Source of the DNA: Lacrimispora sphenoides JCM 1415
GTDB lineage: Bacteria; Bacillota; Clostridia; Lachnospirales; Lachnospiraceae
Reading direction: 5' to 3'
DNA length: 64,000 nt
Assembly: GCF_900105615.1 (NCBI RefSeq)
Contig: NZ_LT630003.1
Location: 4,402,501 to 4,466,500, forward strand
Shown piece by piece: positions 4,992-15,097 of this stretch (position 1 is its first letter; each line of letters begins with the position of its first letter). Under the pieces are notes generated by a model. The model made no database searches. It had not been told where the DNA came from and saw only the letters and a program-made list of their open reading frames with translations. A program made the translations under genes and the position numbers.

Positions 4992-6467
4992 ATGAATGTT
5001 ACACCGAATTTATTAAAAAAGTTAATGGAATATGGAGAATCGGATTTTTATCCTTTTCACATGCCGGGACATAAAAGGCAGTATCATGGATCCTTTGCCG
5101 ATAATTTTCCAAATCCTTTTTCCATAGATATTACGGAGATCGATGGTTTTGATAACCTGCACCATCCGGAAGGGATTTTAAAGGAGTCTATGGAATGGGC
5201 TTCCAGGGTATACGGGAGCAGCAGAACGTATTATCTTGTTAATGGAAGCAGCAGCGGGATCCTTAGTGCCATAAGCGGGACCGTATCAAGGGGTGGAACC
5301 ATTCTTATGAGCAGAAACTGTCATAAGTCAGCGTTTCATGGAGTTTTCCTCAATCAGTTAAGCGCGGAATATATTTATCCACAAATTATACCTGAATTCG
5401 GTATTCAAGGTGGATTACTTCCGGAAAAAATCGAAGAGATGTTGATGAGCAATCGGAAGATTCAAGCGGTGTTTATTGTATCTCCAACTTATGATGGCAT
5501 TGTATCTGATATTAAGGCCATTGCAGAGGTAGCTCATAAATTCCGCCTGCCACTCATTGTGGATGAAGCTCATGGAGCACACTTTTCCTTTGGAAGAGAG
5601 GTAGGATTTCCGGTTTCTGCTTTAGAACTTGGAGCGGATGTGGTGATTCAGAGCCTTCATAAAACTCTTCCTTCTTTTACTCAGACGGCTGTTATGCACG
5701 TAAAGGAAGGATATGTGGATATGGGGAGATTGGATCGCTATGTGCATATGTATCAGACCAGCAGCCCCTCCTACGTGCTGATGGCAGGGATCGAGGGCTG
5801 TATACGGTATATGGCCGGGGAAGGGCTGGAGCAGATGAGGATCTTTTCCGATAGAATAGGAGAGGTCCGAACGGCTTTGTCTAGTATGAAACACCTAAGG
5901 CTTCTTACGGATCAGGAAAAGGGGATGAATGGAATCTTTGATATGGATCTCTCTAAAATCATTGTTTCCACAAGAGGTACGGAGAAATCAGGAGCCTGGC
6001 TGGATGACAAACTGAGAGAGGAATATCATCTGGAGATGGAAATGTGCGGTTCAGACTATGTGACTGCCATAACGACACTTGCTGATACGCAGGAAGGTCT
6101 AAAACGGCTGTGTAAAGCTCTGCTTCATATTGATTCCGTGCTTTCTGCTGAGGAAGGCTGTGAAGATGAGAATTGCTTATATCAGGGGCTGGAGAGAATG
6201 CCGGAATGCCGGTTGAGCATTGCCCAAGCGATGGATGAACCGAGGCGAAGGATGGCTATTCCTGACTGCGAGGGTAAGATATCAGCAGAATTTGTTTACG
6301 TGTATCCCCCGGGGATACCCATCGTTGTACCAGGTGAGGTTTTAAAAAAGGAATCCATTGATCTGATTATGAAGTATAAAGAGCTTGGCCTTGCAGTTCA
6401 GGGGATGGAAGATGAAGAATCCAGAGAGCTTTTTGTGGTTGATGAAGCTGGAATAAATGTTAGATAG
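4992..6467 (+). CDS. Orn/Lys/Arg decarboxylase-family PLP enzyme
   Basis: A cytosolic fold-type I PLP enzyme of 491 residues, the family that decarboxylates lysine, ornithine or arginine to polyamines. Visible marks are the N-terminal FHMPGHK motif (about residue 22), IVDEAHGAHF (about 190) with the aspartate that contacts the PLP nitrogen, and QSLHKTLPS (about 222) with the PLP-binding lysine. It lacks the N-terminal wing domain of inducible E. coli enzymes and matches the short Firmicute form. The substrate cannot be told from sequence alone. In Firmicutes this gene commonly stands before a nucleotide kinase and holB, as here except for the sugar island in between. AAAGGCGG precedes the ATG. 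Confidence 0.85.
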   Translation: MNVTPNLLKKLMEYGESDFYPFHMPGHKRQYHGSFADNFPNPFSIDITEIDGFDNLHHPEGILKESMEWASRVYGSSRTYYLVNGSSSGILSAISGTVSRGGTILMSRNCHKSAFHGVFLNQLSAEYIYPQIIPEFGIQGGLLPEKIEEMLMSNRKIQAVFIVSPTYDGIVSDIKAIAEVAHKFRLPLIVDEAHGAHFSFGREVGFPVSALELGADVVIQSLHKTLPSFTQTAVMHVKEGYVDMGRLDRYVHMYQTSSPSYVLMAGIEGCIRYMAGEGLEQMRIFSDRIGEVRTALSSMKHLRLLTDQEKGMNGIFDMDLSKIIVSTRGTEKSGAWLDDKLREEYHLEMEMCGSDYVTAITTLADTQEGLKRLCKALLHIDSVLSAEEGCEDENCLYQGLERMPECRLSIAQAMDEPRRRMAIPDCEGKISAEFVYVYPPGIPIVVPGEVLKKESIDLIMKYKELGLAVQGMEDEESRELFVVDEAGINVR

Positions 6468-6534
6468 ATTAAAAGATAAAATAAAAGTTAAAATAAAAGA
6501 TAAAAAAGATAGGATAAAAGATGGAGCAGATAAT

Positions 6535-7125
6535 ATGGGCAAAATATTCTATGTAATGGGAAAAAGTGCTTCCGGAAAAGATACAGTTTATAAAAGACTT
6601 TTAAAGAGGCTTCCCCAATTAAAGAAAGTAGTTTTATATACCACCAGACCGATTCGGGATGGAGAAAAGGATGGGGTGGAATATTATTTTACTACCAGTG
6701 ATAAGCTGGAGGAATTCCGAAAAGAACACAGGCTTATTGAGGAGAGGACTTATGAAACTGTTTATGGTCCGTGGAGCTATTTTACTGTTGATGACGGTCA
6801 GATCAATTTAGCCGGGAATAATGGATATCTGATGATCGGAACCCTGGAATCTTATGAAAAGACAAGGGCTTATTTTGGAGAGGATAGGTTGTTTCCTATT
6901 TATATTGAGGTTGAGGATGGAGACCGGCTTTTGAGAGCTATTAAACGAGAGAAGGGACAGAAGACACCTAAATATAGGGAACTTTGCAGAAGGTTTCTGG
7001 CGGATGAAGAGGATTTTAAAGAAGAAAATCTACTTAGATGCGGAATACATAAGAGATTCTGCAACCAGGAGCTGGAATCTTGCCTGGATGAGATCGTAAA
7101 TGCCGTGACCGCAGAGATAGAATGA
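6535..7125 (+). CDS. Guanylate-kinase-like nucleotide kinase
   Basis: A 196-residue P-loop kinase resembling Gmk, which phosphorylates GMP to GDP. After the start come KIFYVMGKSASGKDT (Walker A, GKSASGKD), then YTTRPIRDGEKDGVEYYF, the GMP-binding loop typical of Gmk (TTRxxRxGE.dG..Y.F). The frame stays open upstream to 6457 and overlaps the decarboxylase, but those extra 26 residues come from an A-rich repeat and have no good ribosome site; GGAG eight bases before the ATG at 6535 supports the shorter form. Several clostridia carry a second, divergent Gmk at this locus, so this may not be the housekeeping enzyme. Confidence 0.8.
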   Translation: MGKIFYVMGKSASGKDTVYKRLLKRLPQLKKVVLYTTRPIRDGEKDGVEYYFTTSDKLEEFRKEHRLIEERTYETVYGPWSYFTVDDGQINLAGNNGYLMIGTLESYEKTRAYFGEDRLFPIYIEVEDGDRLLRAIKREKGQKTPKYRELCRRFLADEEDFKEENLLRCGIHKRFCNQELESCLDEIVNAVTAEIE

Positions 7126-7250: not shown

Positions 7251-8252
7251 TTATTTAGCTGCAAGCCGTTTCGCCTTTGCTTCCATACGTGTCCTTGTTA
7301 CATCGATAAATACAGCGGCGATGATAACCAGACCGATCACAATATATTGTACGGAACTGGAGGTATTTAAGAGTGTTAAACCATTTCGAATGGTAGAAAT
7401 CATCAGGGCGCCGATTAAAGTTCCCCAGATGGTTCCTTTTCCTCCCATAAAGGAGGCACCGCCAATAATACATGCCGCAATGGCATCCGTATCATATGGT
7501 GAGATGGCAGCAGAAGGATTGGCAACAGCGGATCGTCCGACTATAACCAGTGCGGCAATGGAGCACATAAAACCGGATAAGCTGTAAACAAAAATCAGTA
7601 TATTATCGGAATTGATTCCGGAAAGCCTGGCAGCTTCCGGATTACCGCCTACGCAGTAAATCATTCTTCCAAGTGCGGTTTTGTTTAAAAAGAAATGATA
7701 TACGATATAGATTAATATTAAAATGATAAAGCAAAGTGGGATCCCGGAGAATCCGCCGGATACTTTAAATAAGTTGCTGGAGCCTAAAAATGTAACGGCA
7801 GCCGGAAAGTCGGAGATTGTCTTTGTTGAGACCACCAGCAGTGCCAGTCCGCACAGTACGTTTTTCATACCCAGGGTTGAAACGAAAGGATGGGGAAGAT
7901 GCATTTTTGTGAGCAGGATGCCGTTTAAGAATCCAACGGAAATTCCGGTTATGATACAGACCAGGATTAATACCAGAGAGTTTGTAATGCCGAAGGATGA
8001 TTTCAGCATACCCATCATACACGCGCACAGGATTGCATTTGCACCAACGGATAAGTCGATGCCTGCCGTAATCAGTACCACCAGCATGGCTGCGGAAATC
8101 AGCCCGTTAACAGCCGTTTGTCTTAGAATATTCATCATATTATTGAGTGTAAAAAATTTATCAGTTGCCAGTGATAAAACAATGAACAAAAGAACCAAGG
8201 CCAGTAAAGGAGCCACCTTTCCTATAATATCTTTCATTTTCTTCGTCTTCAT
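7251..8252 (-). CDS. RbsC-type sugar ABC transporter permease
   Basis: A 333-residue inner-membrane permease of the BPD_transp_2 (RbsC/XylH/MglC) family, with about eight to ten hydrophobic segments. Typical RbsC stretches include the N-terminal TDKFFTLNNMMNILRQ, a TAGIDLSVGA segment near residue 66, and GGNPEAARLSGI near 205, the cytoplasmic loop that contacts the ATPase. The frame extends upstream to a TTG at 8270, but the ATG at 8252 overlaps the rbsA stop as ATGA and has GGGGAGG nine bases before it. Last gene of an rbsB-rbsA-rbsC operon; the exact sugar is unknown. Confidence 0.9.
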   Translation of the reverse strand: MKTKKMKDIIGKVAPLLALVLLFIVLSLATDKFFTLNNMMNILRQTAVNGLISAAMLVVLITAGIDLSVGANAILCACMMGMLKSSFGITNSLVLILVCIITGISVGFLNGILLTKMHLPHPFVSTLGMKNVLCGLALLVVSTKTISDFPAAVTFLGSSNLFKVSGGFSGIPLCFIILILIYIVYHFFLNKTALGRMIYCVGGNPEAARLSGINSDNILIFVYSLSGFMCSIAALVIVGRSAVANPSAAISPYDTDAIAACIIGGASFMGGKGTIWGTLIGALMISTIRNGLTLLNTSSSVQYIVIGLVIIAAVFIDVTRTRMEAKAKRLAAK

Positions 8253-9754
8253 CGAATTTCGCCTCCCCAAGCCGCTTTCATGATTATTTCCTGATTCAGG
8301 ACATCTGTTTTTCTCGAAAGTTCACCCATGACTTTTCCTTCCCTCATGACGATTACCCGGTCACTCATTCCTATGATCTCCGGTAATTCGGAAGAAATCA
8401 TGATAACACATTTTCCGGCACGGACCAGACGGTTCATGATGTTATAAACTTCGACCTTAGCACCTACGTCAATTCCTCTGGTCGGTTCATCAAATATGTA
8501 GATGTCCGCGTTTGTATTGATCCATTTTCCGATGACCACTTTTTGCTGATTGCCGCCTGACAGCTGCCCCACCACCTCATCGGCGGTGGGAGTTTTTATT
8601 TTCAAGTCACTGATATTTTCTTCGGCCAGCTGATCGATCTGTTTCTCATCAAAGAACAGGCCTTTCGTACAGCGTCTCATATTACTTAAGATCAGGTTTG
8701 TTCGGACTGATTGGGAAAGAACAAGTCCCTGCCCTTTGCGGTCTTCTGTTAAAAATGCCATCCCGCAGCGGATACCGGCTTTTGGAGACTTTATGGCCAC
8801 TTTCTCCCCATTTACATAAATATCTCCGCTGTCATATGGGTCAGCACCGAATACAGCCCGGAATGTTTCGGTTCTGCCGGCGCCTACTAAACCGGCAAAA
8901 CCGAGGATTTCTCCATGGTTTGCATGAAAGCTCACATCCCTTAATACACCTGCGGAGTTTAAATGCTCTACCCGGAGGGCTTCCGTACCGGTCTCCGCAT
9001 CAATTTTCGGATATTGATTATCCAATGTTCTGCCTACCATGGCTGAGATCAGCGAATCGTTATCTAATTCATCCGTATTTTTTGTCAGGATGTGTTCTCC
9101 ATCTCGCATGACTGTAACGCGGTCGCATAGCTCAAAGAGCTCCTCCAGCTTATGGGAGACAAAAAGAATAGCAATACCTTTTTCTTTTAAGGAACGGACT
9201 GTTTTCATTAACTGTTCCACTTCCTTTTCCCCAAGGCTGGATGTAGGTTCATCCATGATGATGAGTTTTGCATCGATCAGGACAGCTTTTGCAATTTCCA
9301 CCATTTGCTGGATTCCCATACCATAGGAACCGCATTCTTTTTTTACAGCAATGTCCTGACCCAGGGAAAGCATAACTTCATGGGCTATTTCATGCATTTT
9401 GGTATAATCCAGAAACGGGCTGCCTTTCTTATTAATTGCTTTGTTAATAAAAATATTGTCTGTGACAGATAGAAGTTTAACAATATTTAATTCTTGATAT
9501 ACACAGGCAATACCGGCAGTTGCAGCTTCATTTGGATTCTTAAATGAAACCTTGTTTCCTTCGATGTAAATGGTGCCTTCTTCCGGAATATGTACACCGG
9601 TCAGTACCTTGATCAGGGTGGATTTACCGGCGCCGTTTTCACCGATCAGACCGTGGATCTCTCCAGGCCTGATTTGTAATGACATGTTTCGCATTGCTAC
9701 TACACCAGGGAAGCGTTTTGTTACACCTTTCAGCTCAACCAAATAATTACTCAT
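8249..9754 (-). CDS. RbsA-type double ABC ATPase for sugar uptake
   Basis: A 501-residue ATPase made of two fused nucleotide-binding domains, as in RbsA/MglA/XylG. Domain 1 has an intact Walker A (GENGAGKST, about residue 38) and Walker B (LIIMDEPTSS), but a weak signature. Domain 2 has a divergent Walker A (GLVGAGRTE), a good signature (LSGGNQQK) and Walker B (IYIFDEPTRGID). This uneven split is normal for the family and leaves at least one complete composite site. It energises import through the neighbouring permease. It is a useful intact reference for the degenerate paralogue at 10990-12420. Confidence 0.93.
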   Translation of the reverse strand: MSNYLVELKGVTKRFPGVVAMRNMSLQIRPGEIHGLIGENGAGKSTLIKVLTGVHIPEEGTIYIEGNKVSFKNPNEAATAGIACVYQELNIVKLLSVTDNIFINKAINKKGSPFLDYTKMHEIAHEVMLSLGQDIAVKKECGSYGMGIQQMVEIAKAVLIDAKLIIMDEPTSSLGEKEVEQLMKTVRSLKEKGIAILFVSHKLEELFELCDRVTVMRDGEHILTKNTDELDNDSLISAMVGRTLDNQYPKIDAETGTEALRVEHLNSAGVLRDVSFHANHGEILGFAGLVGAGRTETFRAVFGADPYDSGDIYVNGEKVAIKSPKAGIRCGMAFLTEDRKGQGLVLSQSVRTNLILSNMRRCTKGLFFDEKQIDQLAEENISDLKIKTPTADEVVGQLSGGNQQKVVIGKWINTNADIYIFDEPTRGIDVGAKVEVYNIMNRLVRAGKCVIMISSELPEIIGMSDRVIVMREGKVMGELSRKTDVLNQEIIMKAAWGGEIR

Positions 9755-9790: not shown

Positions 9791-10765
9791 TTATTTCAGG
9801 TAGCCTTTCAGTGTTGTTAAGTATTCTTCTGCATTGTCTGCTGTAATGACTTCACAGCCGGTATCTACGAATGTATCAACGGTCTCTCCCTTTATCGCCT
9901 TAAGGGCTGTTTCAACCGCCTGATAGCCCATGGTATAAGCAGCCTGTGCACAGGTGGCCGTGATGTTGCCGTCAATGATATTCTGGACACCGCTTTGGTT
10001 GCCGTCGAAACCAACGATAATGACGTCCTTTAAACCAAGCTGTTTTACGGCATTGGATGCGCCTGCAGCCGTATCATCGTTGTGGCAGCATACGATCTGA
10101 ATATCTCCGTTCTGAGCGGTTATGATATTTTCCATTACATTTGCAGCCGTATCCGGATTGGATTGGGCATACTGTATGGAAACAACCTCTACACCATTTT
10201 CTTCCAGAGCTTTTATATATCCTGCCTGACGGGCATCGCTGGTGGCATTGCCCTCAACGCCTCCGATAATAGCGGCTTTTGCACCTTTTCCGGCTTTTTT
10301 AGCTGCGAATAAACCACCCTGGTAAGCTGCGTTGTCGTTACCGGTTCCCACGAAGGAGACCTTTCCTGGTATTTCCGCATCAGTGTCAACGGTGATAACA
10401 GGAATTTTAACATCTCCGATTACACTTGCTACAGAGTCTGATTGAAGGGGGGAGATGACAAATGCATCTACACCGCCGGAGAGCATGGTTTCGATCATAT
10501 TGTTCTGTTCATCATAAGCAGTTTCAGAGGCCGGACCCTGCAGATCAACCTTAACCCCTAAATCCTTGGAGGCCGCTTGAACACCTGCCGCAACATATCC
10601 CCAGTATTCACTGGAAAGTGTTTTCAGAATAACGCCAACGGTGATATCCCCGGAAGCAGTTTTTTCTGTTGCAGTTGGCTGTGAAACAGTCTTTTGTTCC
10701 CCGCAGCCAGTTACGGAAGCCAGTATAGCAGATACTAACAGCATGGATAAAATCTTTCTTTTCAT
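9791..10765 (-). CDS. Sugar-binding lipoprotein of the RbsB family
   Basis: A 324-residue solute-binding lipoprotein (Peripla_BP_4 type). The first 20 residues form a lipoprotein signal ending in SVTGC (Cys21), followed by a flexible linker and then ITVGVILKTLSSEYWGYV, the usual start of the RbsB fold. IIVGFDGNQSG near residue 245 is the conserved ligand-domain strand. It should catch a sugar outside the membrane and deliver it to the RbsC-type permease. Being first in its operon fits the high amounts such proteins need. The ligand could be a pentose, galactose, autoinducer-like furanose or other small polyol; the sequence does not decide. Confidence 0.9.
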   Translation of the reverse strand: MKRKILSMLLVSAILASVTGCGEQKTVSQPTATEKTASGDITVGVILKTLSSEYWGYVAAGVQAASKDLGVKVDLQGPASETAYDEQNNMIETMLSGGVDAFVISPLQSDSVASVIGDVKIPVITVDTDAEIPGKVSFVGTGNDNAAYQGGLFAAKKAGKGAKAAIIGGVEGNATSDARQAGYIKALEENGVEVVSIQYAQSNPDTAANVMENIITAQNGDIQIVCCHNDDTAAGASNAVKQLGLKDVIIVGFDGNQSGVQNIIDGNITATCAQAAYTMGYQAVETALKAIKGETVDTFVDTGCEVITADNAEEYLTTLKGYLK

Positions 10766-10830
10766 TACTTTTAATCTCCCTTCCTACTCTCAATCGTTTT
10801 GATAGGTACAATGAATGATATGTGTTTGTT

Positions 10831-10859
10831 ATTTTAACAGTAAAAAGAGGATGAAACAA
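10831..10859 (-). promoter_or_regulatory. Possible promoter of the sugar importer operon
   Basis: On the minus strand TTGTTT (10859-10854), 17-base spacer, TAAAAT (10836-10831). The -35 is weak, which fits a promoter needing an activator such as the neighbouring AraC-type response regulator. Confidence 0.45.
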
Positions 10860-10911
10860 TGGTATATTTTGTGCTAAATGGGGGTGTATTTTTCGAAATC
10901 AGCTTTTTTAT

Positions 10912-10952
10912 AATAAAAAAAGCCTTATTATTTTTAAAAATAAGACTTTTTT
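10912..10952 (-). terminator. Terminator of the two-component/pseudo-ATPase operon
   Basis: On the minus strand AGTCTTATT pairs with AATAAGGCT around a TTTAAAAAT loop, followed by seven T. It separates the regulatory operon (15097-10990) from the importer operon. Confidence 0.75.
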
Positions 10953-10989: not shown

Positions 10990-12420
10990 TTAATCCATTG
11001 CTATTGCTCCATTGTGAAAGGTAATATTCTTACCTTCCATGGTGTAAGCTTCTGCAATCTGGTTCGTAATGATGATTACAGAGATTCCTGACTTCAAAAC
11101 TTCTTTCAGCAGGTTAATGGTGATCTGACGCATTTGAAAATCAACGGAGGAAAATGGTTTTATGCATACCAGGACCAGCGGCCGAACAAAAATCCAGCGG
11201 TAATATAAAAGCTTTAGTTTGCATTCATCACTGACCGAGTATGTTTTTTTCATCAATTCCTCTTCGCTGAATATTCCATCTAACAGGTACCGGGTCATCT
11301 TTCTGTATTTTTTTCTCAGAAAGAACTTTTTTTTATTTCGCTGGATCATAAACGTCATGTGGTCTAAAACGGTCATATCGGCGAACAGCATTTCTTCCAT
11401 TGGCCTTGCTTCGATGAAGGCGATGCCATCCCGGATGGACTGGTGAACGGATTGAAAGGAATATTCTTTTCCGTTTAATAAAATTTTACCTGCTTCAAAT
11501 CCACATTCTCCCTGCAGAATTGGAAGGATATTTCTGCATTCTGCAGAATCCAGGTCCAATATGTTTAAAACTTCTCCTGCATTTAACGATAGAGTAAAAA
11601 CGGGAAGATCCGGCAGCTTTACATTTTGGAATTCAAGAACCGTTTTTTTATCAATCTGCTTTTGTAATAAGTCATTTCTTTTTAAGGTGTTTTTTCTGGT
11701 CTTTTCAAACAATTCCATATAGGTCTGAAATTTAGAGAAATCTTCCCGGTTCATATGGCCGATGGTCCTGCCGTTTTTGATAATCGTTATTTCATCGGCA
11801 TATTTGTATAATTTGGTGGAGCTGTTTACAATGTAGAGGAACGTCATACCCCGGTCTTTTAATTTTGTCACCAGAGCAAAGAAGTTTTTGAGCTGCTCTT
11901 CTGTCATGATCATTTCGATATCCGTTATAACGGCCAGACTGCATCCGGAGACATAAGCGCGCATTAACTCGGCTTGTTTCTGCATGCCGGGGTCCAGCAT
12001 GTGGGCTTTAGCAAGCAGGGGAATGGAAATATCCCAATCCTTAAAGAGTTTCGGAGCGTGCCTGCAGAGAGGATTTACCCGGCTCCAGAAGGGGACCCTG
12101 CCGCTGGCCACGAAAATGTTCTCAGCGACACTCAGCTCAGAAAAGATTCCTTTGTTGCGGCCGATAAATGCAGTCTGCTTTAACATCTGTTCCTGAATTT
12201 TGGAGGATACTATTTTTTCCCCTTTATAATAGGACCAGCCGTAGCCTGGTTTTAAGTTTCCGTACAGAAGCTGCAGGAAATATTCTTTTTCAATGGTATT
12301 GTTGACGATGACACAGCAGATTTCTCCCTCAAATGCCCGAAAGAAGAGTCCATTTAAATAAGCCTGGCCATCCATGGAACAGTGTATATTTTCATAACGG
12401 ATCACTTCTTTTTTCATCAT
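10990..12420 (-). CDS. Degenerate RbsA-like double ABC protein (pseudo-ATPase)
   Basis: A 476-residue protein with the size and two-domain plan of RbsA but without working ATPase motifs. The Walker A of domain 1 reads VNNTIEKEYF (about residues 39-48; the lysine stays, the glycines and Ser/Thr are gone). Walker B of domain 1 is LAVITDIEM (no catalytic Glu). In domain 2 Walker A is DLDSAECRN (289-297), the signature is SVSDECK where RbsA has LSGGNQQ, and Walker B is LVCIKPFSSVD where RbsA has IFDEPTRGID. The frame is intact and its start overlaps the kinase stop as ATGA, so it is not a decayed gene. I infer a non-catalytic partner of the kinase or of the RbsC-type permease. Confidence 0.75.
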   Translation of the reverse strand: MMKKEVIRYENIHCSMDGQAYLNGLFFRAFEGEICCVIVNNTIEKEYFLQLLYGNLKPGYGWSYYKGEKIVSSKIQEQMLKQTAFIGRNKGIFSELSVAENIFVASGRVPFWSRVNPLCRHAPKLFKDWDISIPLLAKAHMLDPGMQKQAELMRAYVSGCSLAVITDIEMIMTEEQLKNFFALVTKLKDRGMTFLYIVNSSTKLYKYADEITIIKNGRTIGHMNREDFSKFQTYMELFEKTRKNTLKRNDLLQKQIDKKTVLEFQNVKLPDLPVFTLSLNAGEVLNILDLDSAECRNILPILQGECGFEAGKILLNGKEYSFQSVHQSIRDGIAFIEARPMEEMLFADMTVLDHMTFMIQRNKKKFFLRKKYRKMTRYLLDGIFSEEELMKKTYSVSDECKLKLLYYRWIFVRPLVLVCIKPFSSVDFQMRQITINLLKEVLKSGISVIIITNQIAEAYTMEGKNITFHNGAIAMD

Positions 12421-13451
12421 CCAATCCCTTCTGTCTGCTCAAACATATAAGGAAGTGTGAGACATACTTCGGTTCCGATTCTGGGAGTGCTTAAAATGTG
12501 GATGCCATATTCGTCACCCATGAGAAGACGGATTCTGGAATTTACATTTATGAGTGCGATTCCTCCCTTTCCTCCTTCATTGGCGGAACTGTCATTGGCA
12601 TCCATTCGGGAAAGCTTTTCATTGAGGCAGCCAAGCCTGGCTTCTTCAATGCCGATCCCGTCATCAACCACGGAAAGATAAAGTACGGTATCACTGTGCT
12701 CGATGTCAATGACAATGGTTCCCCCTGAAACCTTAGGTTCCAATCCGTGTTTAATGGCATTCTCCACGATTGGCTGGAGAGTTAGCTTGGGGATCCGGGT
12801 TTTTAAAATTTCTTCATCATCCAGGGGCAATTTGATTTTTAATTCCAGCTTATCATCAAAGCGGTATTTCTGTATTAAAAAATAATTTTCTACATTGTTA
12901 AGCTCTTCCTGAAGGGTGCTGAGACTCTCCATTTTTGAAGTTGTATAGCGGAAGAATACAGCAAGAGCCTCTGTGATCTTTCCGATTTCCGGGACTCCCG
13001 CCATAATCGCATCGGAACGTATGGATTCCAGTACATTATAGAGGAAATGAGGGTTGATCTGATTTTGTAGGGCTAAGTATCTTGCCTGCTGTTTGGCATT
13101 TTCCATTATTTTATCCTTGTCCAGGATGGTGTGTACCTTTAAAAGCAGGGCATCTGTATCCGGTGAGATTCCTTCCAGATTTTTAAATATTTCGGTAAAA
13201 ATAATCCCATCGTTGAAAAGCTCTATTTTTTTCCGGATGGTCCGAAAGGGTTCTAAAATCATAATTTTACCTATAGCAAGCATGAGGAAAAAGGATAACA
13301 GCATACTCCACGCCATAACTGTATATAGGATGGATTCCGTCAATTCCGGCCTAAGCAGAATCAGAAAGAACAGGATCAGGGCAAGACAGCTCCATGAAAT
13401 CATGGCTCTTATCCAGATCAGAATCCGTTTTTTTAACCATTGTTTTTTCAA
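12417..13451 (-). CDS. YesM-type sensor histidine kinase with minimal sensor
   Basis: A 344-residue membrane kinase. Two hydrophobic segments (about residues 10-33 and 41-65) are joined by only about seven residues, so there is almost no extracellular domain, unlike typical YesM kinases. The phosphoacceptor box is QINPHFLYNV (His135), the N box is ENAIKHGLE, and ATP-lid glycines lie in DDGIGI and the later GGIALINV. It should phosphorylate the adjacent YesN-type regulator. The start is a TTG at 13451 with GGGGAGGAG before it. With no outside sensor it probably takes its signal through a partner, such as the binding protein, permease or pseudo-ATPase beside it. Confidence 0.88.
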   Translation of the reverse strand: MKKQWLKKRILIWIRAMISWSCLALILFFLILLRPELTESILYTVMAWSMLLSFFLMLAIGKIMILEPFRTIRKKIELFNDGIIFTEIFKNLEGISPDTDALLLKVHTILDKDKIMENAKQQARYLALQNQINPHFLYNVLESIRSDAIMAGVPEIGKITEALAVFFRYTTSKMESLSTLQEELNNVENYFLIQKYRFDDKLELKIKLPLDDEEILKTRIPKLTLQPIVENAIKHGLEPKVSGGTIVIDIEHSDTVLYLSVVDDGIGIEEARLGCLNEKLSRMDANDSSANEGGKGGIALINVNSRIRLLMGDEYGIHILSTPRIGTEVCLTLPYMFEQTEGIG

Positions 13452-13468: not shown

Positions 13469-15097
13469 TCAGCGTTCCAGAAACATTTTGCGGTATTCAT
13501 TGGGAGAGACGCCCAGCGCCTTTTTAAACTGTTTGGTAAAAAATTTGATATCACTGTAACCAACCAGTTCCGCTACTTCGCTTACGTTCCGCTCTTTTTC
13601 CACCAGAAGCTTTTTGGCGGCCTCTATCCTTACCATCTGTATATATTCGGTCAGTGTTTTCCCTGTTTCTTTTTTAAATAAGTATGAAAAATAGGTATAG
13701 CTGAAACCGGCGTTTTTTGCCAGCTCTTCCAGCTTTATTTGAACGCCCTTGTTTTTTTCTATATAGTGCTTGGCATAAGCAACCGGTTTTATTTCCCTGC
13801 TTTTTAAATGGCTCAGAACTTCAAGCAATGATTTTGTAAGGGTCTCTTCCAGGAGTTCAAAAGCCTGGTCAAGGCTGATGCAATGCTCATACATTTCAGA
13901 GAAGTAAGCGGCTTTTCCGCTTTTGTCCAGAGAGGCATCAAGAAGTTCAAACCAGTCCAGATAATTATGGGCCAGCCGGAGCAGCTCCATTTTAATATCA
14001 AGCCCGGAGATGTTTTTTTCCGTTTGCATGATTTGTTTTGCATCATTTAAGCAGCTTTTTATTTCTTCCGGTTCAAAGGATTCCGGTCTGTCTTCTAACA
14101 GCCTGGAAATCTCTGCGGTTAAGGAGTTCTTTTCTTCTGATCCGGCAGCAGGCGCATTCAATTTCGACACCGTATTGGCATCCGTAAGGAGCCGGTTGTA
14201 CATGGCGATCCGGCTGTACTGTATCTGCCTGATCAGTTCCTCGTCTGTATCCACCTGCTCTGTGATGATAGCTGAAAAGTATATCTTTGGAAATAGATCC
14301 TGAAGTCCCATGACCCGGTCTCTGACATGGTTTAAGGCCTTCATCAGTTCTTCCTTATCTGAAGGTTCATGGAACAGTAATAAAAATATTCCCTCTTCGG
14401 ATGCCTCAATCGTTAAATCTCCTTCTTCAGAAGCAAATTCGACCTGAAGGATCTCAATCGTTTTATCAATTAAAAGCTGATAAGCATCTTTTGTAAAATC
14501 CTTATACTCAATATCCGGCTTCACAACCAGACACCGGCCGCCCTGGTTAACAACCCGGGACGGATTGATTTTTCGAACTTCTTTTAATACGGACTCAGGC
14601 TTTTCCTCCGGTTTTTGCTCCAATACCATTTTTAGAAATACCCGTTTAAACTCTCCGGAATAGTTTCTTATGGTTTCTTCTAAGTGCATCTGGACTTCCT
14701 GGCTGCTTTTCTGCTCCAAGGTTTCTTTGACCAGTTTTTTTAACGTACGGGTCAGGTCATCCTGGTTAATTGGCTTCAGCAAATAATCCCGTACTCCGTA
14801 CCGGATTCCCTGTTGTGCGTATTGAAAGTCCTTATAGCCGCTTATGATAATGCATTTAAGAGAAGCATTCTGCTTCTTGGCCTCTTCAATCAGCTGGAGG
14901 CCATCCATACCCGGCATTCTGATGTCCGTAAGCAGAACGTCAGGTTTCTTTTCCTGAATCAGCTGAAATGCAGAAATGCCATCATAAGCAACCCCCAATA
15001 GCTTTACCCCTATCTCATCCCAGTCGATCAAATATTCTAAAAGCCTGCAGATTTTCTTTTCGTCGTCTGCTATTATTATTCCTAAAATTGAAATCAT
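13469..15097 (-). CDS. YesN-type response regulator with AraC DNA-binding domain
   Basis: A 542-residue response regulator. The receiver domain (about 1-125) has the acidic pair ADD (10-12), phospho-acceptor Asp58 in LLTDIRMPG and the conserved lysine in YLLKPIN. A middle region of unclear function follows, then two AraC-type helix-turn-helix motifs in the last 100 residues, with NAGFSYTYFSYLFKKETG and SEVAELVGYSDIKFFTKQF. It likely activates the importer genes in response to its sugar. First gene of a three-gene operon with the kinase and pseudo-ATPase. The ribosome site before the ATG is poor (AGGGG directly at the start), so the start is less certain. Confidence 0.9.
   Translation of the reverse strand: MISILGIIIADDEKKICRLLEYLIDWDEIGVKLLGVAYDGISAFQLIQEKKPDVLLTDIRMPGMDGLQLIEEAKKQNASLKCIIISGYKDFQYAQQGIRYGVRDYLLKPINQDDLTRTLKKLVKETLEQKSSQEVQMHLEETIRNYSGEFKRVFLKMVLEQKPEEKPESVLKEVRKINPSRVVNQGGRCLVVKPDIEYKDFTKDAYQLLIDKTIEILQVEFASEEGDLTIEASEEGIFLLLFHEPSDKEELMKALNHVRDRVMGLQDLFPKIYFSAIITEQVDTDEELIRQIQYSRIAMYNRLLTDANTVSKLNAPAAGSEEKNSLTAEISRLLEDRPESFEPEEIKSCLNDAKQIMQTEKNISGLDIKMELLRLAHNYLDWFELLDASLDKSGKAAYFSEMYEHCISLDQAFELLEETLTKSLLEVLSHLKSREIKPVAYAKHYIEKNKGVQIKLEELAKNAGFSYTYFSYLFKKETGKTLTEYIQMVRIEAAKKLLVEKERNVSEVAELVGYSDIKFFTKQFKKALGVSPNEYRKMFLER

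Follow-up and report, generated by a model that had tools for sequence, protein, structure and literature searches.

Some Clostridia encode, usually near a working sugar importer, an ATPase-dead paralogue of RbsA, the ATPase of sugar ABC importers, which probably tells a histidine kinase the state of that importer. The gene occurs together with genes of a YesN-type response regulator and of the kinase; below, these three genes are referred to as the trio and the ATPase-dead RbsA paralogue as the dead protein. On balance, we favour the view that the trio forms a three-component sensor of transport. The dead protein may serve in it as a surrogate coupling the RbsB-RbsA-RbsC importer to a sensorless kinase that would induce the importer. 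This reading is based on the conserved trio, the loss of catalytic motifs, the selection acting on the gene, the missing sensor domain of the kinase, a direct repeat before the importer genes and the pattern of distances among the gene trees. Such a sensor would account for the working of a group of kinases that have no sensor of their own.

Organisation of the locus

In the window (the whole stretch of DNA analysed, 64,000 nucleotides of the genome of Lacrimispora sphenoides JCM 1415), the order of transcription on the minus strand is YesN-type regulator, kinase, dead RbsA, RbsB, intact RbsA and RbsC. The features are as follows.

13469..15097, minus strand: YesN-type response regulator (receiver and AraC-type HTH) of 542 aa, first gene of the trio; Pfam Response_reg 90.7 bits, HTH_18 80.9 bits.
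12417..13451, minus strand: His_kinase-family histidine kinase of 344 aa with two membrane helices and a hairpin, without an extracellular domain; Pfam His_kinase 80 bits, HATPase_c 49.5 bits.
10990..12420, minus strand: ATPase-dead RbsA paralogue (pseudo-ATPase) of 476 aa, identified by motif loss, clade membership, dN/dS and a model with pLDDT 85.6.
10916..10952, minus strand: possible terminator that separates trio and importer operon, an AT-rich stem-loop followed by a T run, seen by eye in the alignment of orthologues.
10861..10892, minus strand: direct repeat AAAATACACC-12-AAAATATACC, putative regulator site before the binding-protein gene, from a pattern search and conservation.
10815..10844, minus strand: promoter-like hexamers TTTACT-18-TATCAT just downstream of the repeat, from a consensus scan only.
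9791..10765, minus strand: RbsB-type sugar-binding protein of 324 aa; Peripla_BP_4 179.8 bits.
8249..9754, minus strand: intact RbsA-type tandem ATPase of 501 aa; ABC_tran 169.1 bits in two stretches; P-loops, LSGG and DEP motifs present.
7251..8270, minus strand: RbsC-type permease of 339 aa; BPD_transp_2 124.8 bits.

The start of the dead RbsA gene overlaps the stop of the kinase gene (ATGA), which agrees with the intact, start-stop coupled reading frame described in the original prediction, and the intact RbsA said to lie nearby for comparison is the gene at 8249..9754, with its P-loops, LSGG and DEP. A terminator scan demanding three G-C pairs found no terminator, and the consensus scan gave three promoter-like sites in the region versus 1.5 in shuffled sequences.

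Structure and motifs of the dead protein

The dead protein of the window aligns with the intact RbsA over the whole length at 21% identity. Its predicted structure is a tandem ABC ATPase fold (pTM 0.53), and the model was matched over its whole length by DppD, a tandem NBD protein, so that RbsA length and two-domain order are retained, as had been claimed. Both P-loops, Walker B and LSGG are replaced, with one lysine still aligned with the Walker A lysine; the replacement of both P-loops, both Walker B glutamates and the domain 2 signature had been noted in the original prediction. Thus, the dead protein has its length (about 500 aa in working proteins), domain order, fold and common ancestry in common with working RbsA-type sugar ABC ATPases, but lacks the Walker A, Walker B and LSGG motifs of the latter, belongs to a separate clade and adjoins a kinase.

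Distribution

In a protein search, 33 relatives scored at least 174 bits, followed by a gap to RbsA proteins at 125 bits (best 120 of 488 matches). Where the source supplies a name, the relatives are called 'hypothetical protein', 'ATP-binding cassette domain-containing protein' or 'ABC-type sugar transport system ATPase', and none of the 33 top proteins, all of 398-491 aa, is a fusion of kinase and dead ABC. A second copy in the same genome (L002), 23-24% identical to the first, lies directly behind another short kinase, which rules out a one-off in this genome. The same genome also contains about 30 RbsA-like tandem ATPases; the match L008 (2289554-2290900), for example, was reported with one in-frame TAG.

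Within the genus, 13 genomes including that of the window were sampled, with the window type in 11 and the second type in nine; a fourteenth genome (G341) gave no match. Wider draws, in each of which the genome of the window was counted, were made from the family, the class and the phylum. The family draw, with a 38-sequence profile, gave matches in 37 of 397 genomes (33 of 334 genera); at least one locus was fetched from each matching genome and all contained a dead-clade gene, in G164 and G384 only a half-dead one. The class draw gave 16 matches in 391 genomes, 13 of them dead and three (G470, G557 and G642) live on inspection, and the phylum draw six in 299, of which four were dead, one (G1056) was live on inspection and one (G1038) was left unclassified. 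Matches set aside as live after fetching were L140, L141, L180-L184 and L264, and 13 weak matches from the scan of named genomes described below (L199-L211, 17-24% identity, mostly in other phyla) are presumed to be ordinary ATPases. The dead gene is thus also present in several families besides that of the window. A scan of named genomes, which used a closer alignment and names only relatives of the window type, found the nearest one in Lacrimispora celerecrescens (93%), followed by Clostridium sp. Marseille-P2415 (80%), and relatives of about 50% identity to the window type in L. xylanisolvens, L. defluvii and L. amygdalina.

Altogether, 79 dead genes from 62 genomes were collected, the window included. 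They were fetched with their flanks as a first set of 60, 15 from other families and four later ones, and include four half-dead genes.

Conserved and lost positions

LSGG is kept in none of the 60 first-set dead proteins. In NBD1 of these proteins, a lysine is aligned with that of Walker A in 25 and the preceding glycine in 32, the Walker B aspartate is kept in 16, the Walker B glutamate in eight and the H-loop histidine in three. In NBD2, the Walker B aspartate is found in none, its glutamate in two and a basic residue (Arg/Lys) of Walker A in one.

Conservation was compared at positions at least 90% conserved in live RbsA, using nonredundant sets of 40 dead and 12 live proteins, with nucleotide-site and post-Q-loop positions chosen by what we take to be the general anatomy of ABC proteins. 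Mean retention in the dead proteins was 13% at 29 nucleotide-site positions and 32% at 78 other positions. The asparagine behind each Q-loop is kept in all 40 nonredundant dead proteins, the post-Q-loop class consisting of two positions only, and the segments behind the Q-loops of both halves rank second and fourth among the most conserved nine-residue windows of the family. An asparagine at this place is common in ABC ATPases, so its conservation may be structural. Some P-loop positions are kept above average (the aligned N in 70%, the last G in 60% and the K in 32%), which slightly lowers our confidence in the three-component sensor. In view of these positions, of three proteins that keep GKS and of four that keep the NBD1 P-loop, the dead proteins might still bind nucleotides.

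The N-terminus (residues 2-10) is specific to the trio, with Glu5 in 60 of 60 first-set dead proteins versus 0% of live ones and Arg8 in 92% versus 11%, and might be considered a candidate for the kinase contact.

Kinases without a sensor domain

According to hydropathy, 57 of 59 first-set kinases possess two hydrophobic membrane segments joined by loops of 1-16 aa; of the exceptions, L086 is cut by a contig end and L128 has one segment, and L112 was left unscored. Two segments with loops of 3-9 aa were also found in all 14 kinases of the second set, and among three later kinases that of L259 shows one segment. The AlphaFold model of the window kinase (pLDDT 84.8) consists of helices 5-33 and 37-80 followed by the kinase core. 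Thus, no extracellular sensor domain was detected by hydropathy in any kinase examined, nor in the model of the window kinase.

In the genome of the window, frames of at least 468 aa account for 36 of the 39 kinase matches. The other three are the two trio kinases and a soluble kinase of the same type, 272 aa long, beside another sugar operon. The latter (L227, 7296-8114, near 2,115,300 of the genome) has a YesN-type regulator of its own and adjoins a sugar importer operon of another class; a dead ABC gene was absent among the frames listed for this locus.

Gene neighbourhood

In 77 of 78 testable loci, the kinase gene is found directly upstream of the dead gene and in the same orientation; the regulator gene precedes the kinase in 75 of 76, contig ends excluding L086 and L122 for the regulator and L262 for both genes. 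The exception is L168 (G746, dead gene 8001-9455), where kinase and regulator were absent within 8 kb; this dead gene is flanked by a gene similar to those of isoleucyl-tRNA synthetases and by three genes of M42 peptidases. The kinase of L112 is broken, being spread over three frames. A 4-nt overlap of the dead and kinase genes is permitted by the frame in 33 of 77 pairs (L263 included, L112 and L168 left out).

A live RbsA gene above the score cut is present within the fetched 8 kb in 53 of the 60 first-set loci, in three of them on the other strand. The remaining seven are L100, L103, L118, L122, L133, L137 and L138, some of which lie at contig ends or have a lower-scoring or partial live RbsA. 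L100 (G102) contains genes of the regulator, kinase, dead ABC, RbsB and RbsC. The last two are separated by only 16 bp, whereas in the related L101 a live RbsA gene occupies this place. The best live RbsA match is 47% identical in G102, a genome 96% complete, versus 82% in G100, the genome of L101. A lanthionine-synthetase-like gene (DUF4135 and LANC_like; L100 1831-4872) is located downstream of the L100 importer that lacks a live ATPase gene. In L131 (G221), the last 4 nt of the dead gene are shared with an RbsC-type gene, and a full importer is also encoded upstream; directly downstream of this permease gene is a phage-type integrase gene (5795-6859). The RbsB-type proteins of L125, L127, L128 and L129 measure 611-635 aa, roughly double the length usual for such proteins.

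Direct repeat before the importer genes

In the stretch from the dead gene to the importer, direct repeats are enriched at a spacing of 21 bp (z about 10; z 4 at 20 and 22 bp), as calculated for 25 representative loci of 46 usable ones with 60 shuffles; five control sets gave z 1.9-2.7 at 21 bp. Repeats phased by 21 bp often resemble CCAAAGAATACCCC. A count made with a strict half-site is descriptive only, this half-site having been defined with the sequences in view. In the window, the repeat is situated between the dead gene and rbsB, directly upstream of the promoter-like pair. The pattern written from it has its sole match there, both in the window (0 of 100 shuffles) and in the 5.3-Mb genome, and the repeat block appears conserved by eye in eight aligned loci, including one of another genus. 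In 11 loci with the importer elsewhere, the signal is weak, with z 3.8 before the first importer gene; as controls, the stretches behind the dead gene and before the regulator gave 2.7 and 2.2. The 21-22-bp direct repeat before the importer genes is likely a regulator site, for which it is a putative candidate by sequence.

Distances between the gene trees

Tree distances were compared in 39 nonredundant loci of 62 with all six genes. Distances of the dead protein are correlated with those of the kinase (0.85) as well as with those of live RbsA (0.75), RbsC (0.72) and RbsB (0.66). Given the kinase and regulator, the partial correlation of the dead protein with the importer is 0.47-0.55 (0 of 1000 permutations as high), and that of the kinase with the importer given the dead protein is -0.08 to -0.17. 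Physical linkage was rejected as the whole cause of this pattern, which is stronger, not weaker, in the loci where live RbsA lies upstream or divergent, although these number only 12 (dead-importer partial 0.62-0.67 versus kinase-importer -0.25 to -0.29; for L131, one of the 12, the permease counted is that beside the dead gene). The contrast is weak in the 27 loci with live RbsA downstream, with a dead-importer partial of 0.23-0.36 and a kinase-importer value still at 0.14-0.16. These distances fit a chain kinase - dead ABC - importer, as a correlation and not as a contact, and may partly reflect a better-resolved tree of the dead ABC.

Proposed mechanism and its alternatives

The original prediction suggested a signalling role, either by binding RbsC in place of RbsA or by linking the transport state to the kinase. 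This interpretation is supported in part. The role as such is strongly supported by the fixed gene order, purifying selection, the sensorless kinases and the position of the dead protein as a bridge between the kinase and importer distances; the contacts may be envisaged as follows. Since the RbsA fold is retained in the dead protein, together with the conserved segments that follow the Q-loops, this protein might dock on RbsC from the cytoplasmic side but drive no transport, and it would also touch the kinase. Docking of ligand-loaded RbsB on RbsC would then move the dead protein and thereby switch the kinase, and the YesN-type regulator would bind the 21-22-bp-phased repeat and turn the importer operon on.

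More tentatively, and with some doubt on our side, the system might represent a receptor class, an importer whose motor is swapped for an ATPase-dead copy, where RbsB would bind the sugar outside, RbsC would pass the signal without transport and dead RbsA would hand it to the sensorless kinase.

Alternatively, the dead protein could be a cytoplasmic ligand sensor for the kinase, with a remodelled pocket that binds a sugar phosphate or nucleotide and with the importer untouched. Such a sensor would provide the partner that the kinase needs, would suit the trios of seven first-set loci without live RbsA above the cut, and agrees with the four early relatives whose NBD1 P-loop could bind ATP. We nevertheless regard it as unlikely: on average, conservation at the former nucleotide site is lower than in the remainder of the fold and the replacements there are varied, unlike a retained pocket, and the tie of the dead protein to the importer in the distances exceeds that explained by the kinase.

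The dead protein may also be imagined as a transport brake, which competes with RbsA for RbsC and lowers uptake, the adjacency of the kinase setting its expression only. However, the distances track the kinase more closely than the importer, the overlap with the kinase gene is possible in many pairs, the kinase would be left without any sensor, and L100 keeps the dead gene though its operon has no live RbsA gene; this makes a brake quite improbable, even with the RbsA fold and size, the conservation of post-Q-loop segments in both halves and the live RbsA gene nearby in most first-set loci speaking for it.

A scaffold that joins the kinase and regulator or stabilises the kinase, with no role in sensing, would be in line with the constant trio and the trio-specific N-terminus (Glu5, Arg8), but it leaves unexplained both the partial distance correlation with the importer and the conservation of the segments behind both Q-loops, and is given very little weight here.

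Selection and decay

For three ortholog groups within one genus, the median dN/dS of the dead genes is 0.088 (window type, from seven orthologues), 0.099 and 0.071. In the same groups, the medians are 0.101, 0.045 and 0.054 for the kinases and 0.043, 0.048 and 0.048 for live RbsA, so that the values of the dead genes are near or above those of the kinases and above those of live RbsA. An in-frame stop was reported in one of the 79 collected dead genes (L118/G234). A pseudogene is contradicted by these ratios and by the report of no more than this one stop, and neutral decay, which the original prediction had named as counter-evidence, is thus not borne out within the one genus; elsewhere, L118, with its stop, and L112, with its broken kinase, look damaged. 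A functionless rbsA duplicate in decay, to which the low identity, the lost motifs and the stop of L118 might point, is hardly credible in view of the low dN/dS, the single stop and the single clade of support 1.0 described below.

Comparison with known systems

In BceAB-BceRS, the bacitracin-sensing system of B. subtilis, the kinase has no extracellular sensing domain and is controlled by an ABC transporter, which is in turn induced by the regulator (PMC10314905, PMC7828314). The trio would be similar in that its sensorless kinase would depend on an ABC transporter too. Its kinase has the BceS-type arrangement of two membrane helices without an extracellular sensor domain, and a tie of kinase and transporter is suggested by the importer genes adjoining the trio and by the repeat before them, induction itself being a prediction from sequence. 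In contrast, the working BceAB is itself required for activation of the kinase, whereas a separate ATPase-dead RbsA paralogue is present here in the sensing operon, and the Bce permease has a large extracellular loop and bacitracin as the substrate, whereas the set found here is of the RbsBAC sugar type with a BPD_transp_2 permease. There is accordingly neither a BceB-like permease with a large loop nor an active BceA partner, the permease being of RbsC type and the ABC protein lacking ATPase motifs. A further difference from Bce is the combination, in the trio, of a His_kinase-type (PF06580) kinase with a YesN/AraC-type regulator.

A three-component sensing system, CuaDSR, was described in a Clostridium-type bacterium, where a YesN/AraC-type regulator induces the neighbouring sugar ABC importer, and CuaS is a protein of 627 aa with an ectodomain construct of 267 residues (PMC10384115). 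The trio shares the YesN/AraC-type regulator (Response_reg and HTH_18 here) and, presumably, the importer as a target. The third component of CuaDSR and of XylFII-LytS is an extracellular binding protein on the kinase ectodomain, whereas that of the trio is predicted to be cytoplasmic and the examined kinases have no ectodomain. By this comparison, the trio lacks a defining feature of BceS-type systems and one of CuaDSR.

In the Pst-PhoU-PhoR system, the state of the phosphate importer reaches the kinase via a cytoplasmic partner, which would be similar to the trio in passing the state of an ABC importer to a kinase. PhoU, however, is a helical adaptor with no relationship to ABC ATPases, and the ATPase PstB is active, whereas the relay of the trio would be a dead RbsA. 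To our knowledge, how a kinase reads the state of a transporter is not settled even for Bce systems. A text search of the literature, covering titles and abstract openings with subscription journals mostly outside its reach, found no description of an ATPase-dead RbsA with a two-component system. Evolution seems to have split two jobs here, transport being left to one RbsA and signalling to a dead one, and owing to this division sensing could be studied without ATP hydrolysis.

Stepwise loss of motifs

In a FastTree tree, all 79 dead genes form one clade with a support of 1.0. Its first branch consists of L137, L138, L259 and L261, the half-dead members, in which the NBD1 P-loop is intact and the NBD2 P-loop and LSGG are gone. 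Among the other 75, GKS persists in L105, L109 and L179 while the first glycine is missing, the L262 sequence is cut ahead of the NBD1 P-loop, and the remainder have neither P-loop. The sister of all 79 is L263 (G153, 8001-9452; support 0.979), an ABC gene in the third position after a regulator and a kinase. Both P-loops and LSGG are present in L263, and DQ replaces DE in the Walker B of NBD2 (Gln for the catalytic Glu).

The original prediction had listed, as an argument against it, homologues that occupy this operon position with their Walker motifs intact. Such homologues do exist, with both P-loops and LSGG in L263 and with the NBD1 P-loop in L137, L138, L259 and L261. Because of their sister and first-branch positions in the tree, we interpret these five as earlier stages of the same system. 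It seems from these sequences that the paralogue joined the kinase first and lost catalysis afterwards, a view that rests on one intact locus. Such stepwise loss would record the passage from an enzyme to a signalling pseudoenzyme, and, if the receptor class is real, its clade would trace the change of a transporter motor into a component of signalling, with L263 as the intact stage, the first branch as the half-dead one and the others as fully dead. The L263 kinase has 392 aa and a 26-residue loop between its membrane segments, and close matches to L263 in the database are limited to two proteins (97% and 81%), followed by one at 40%.
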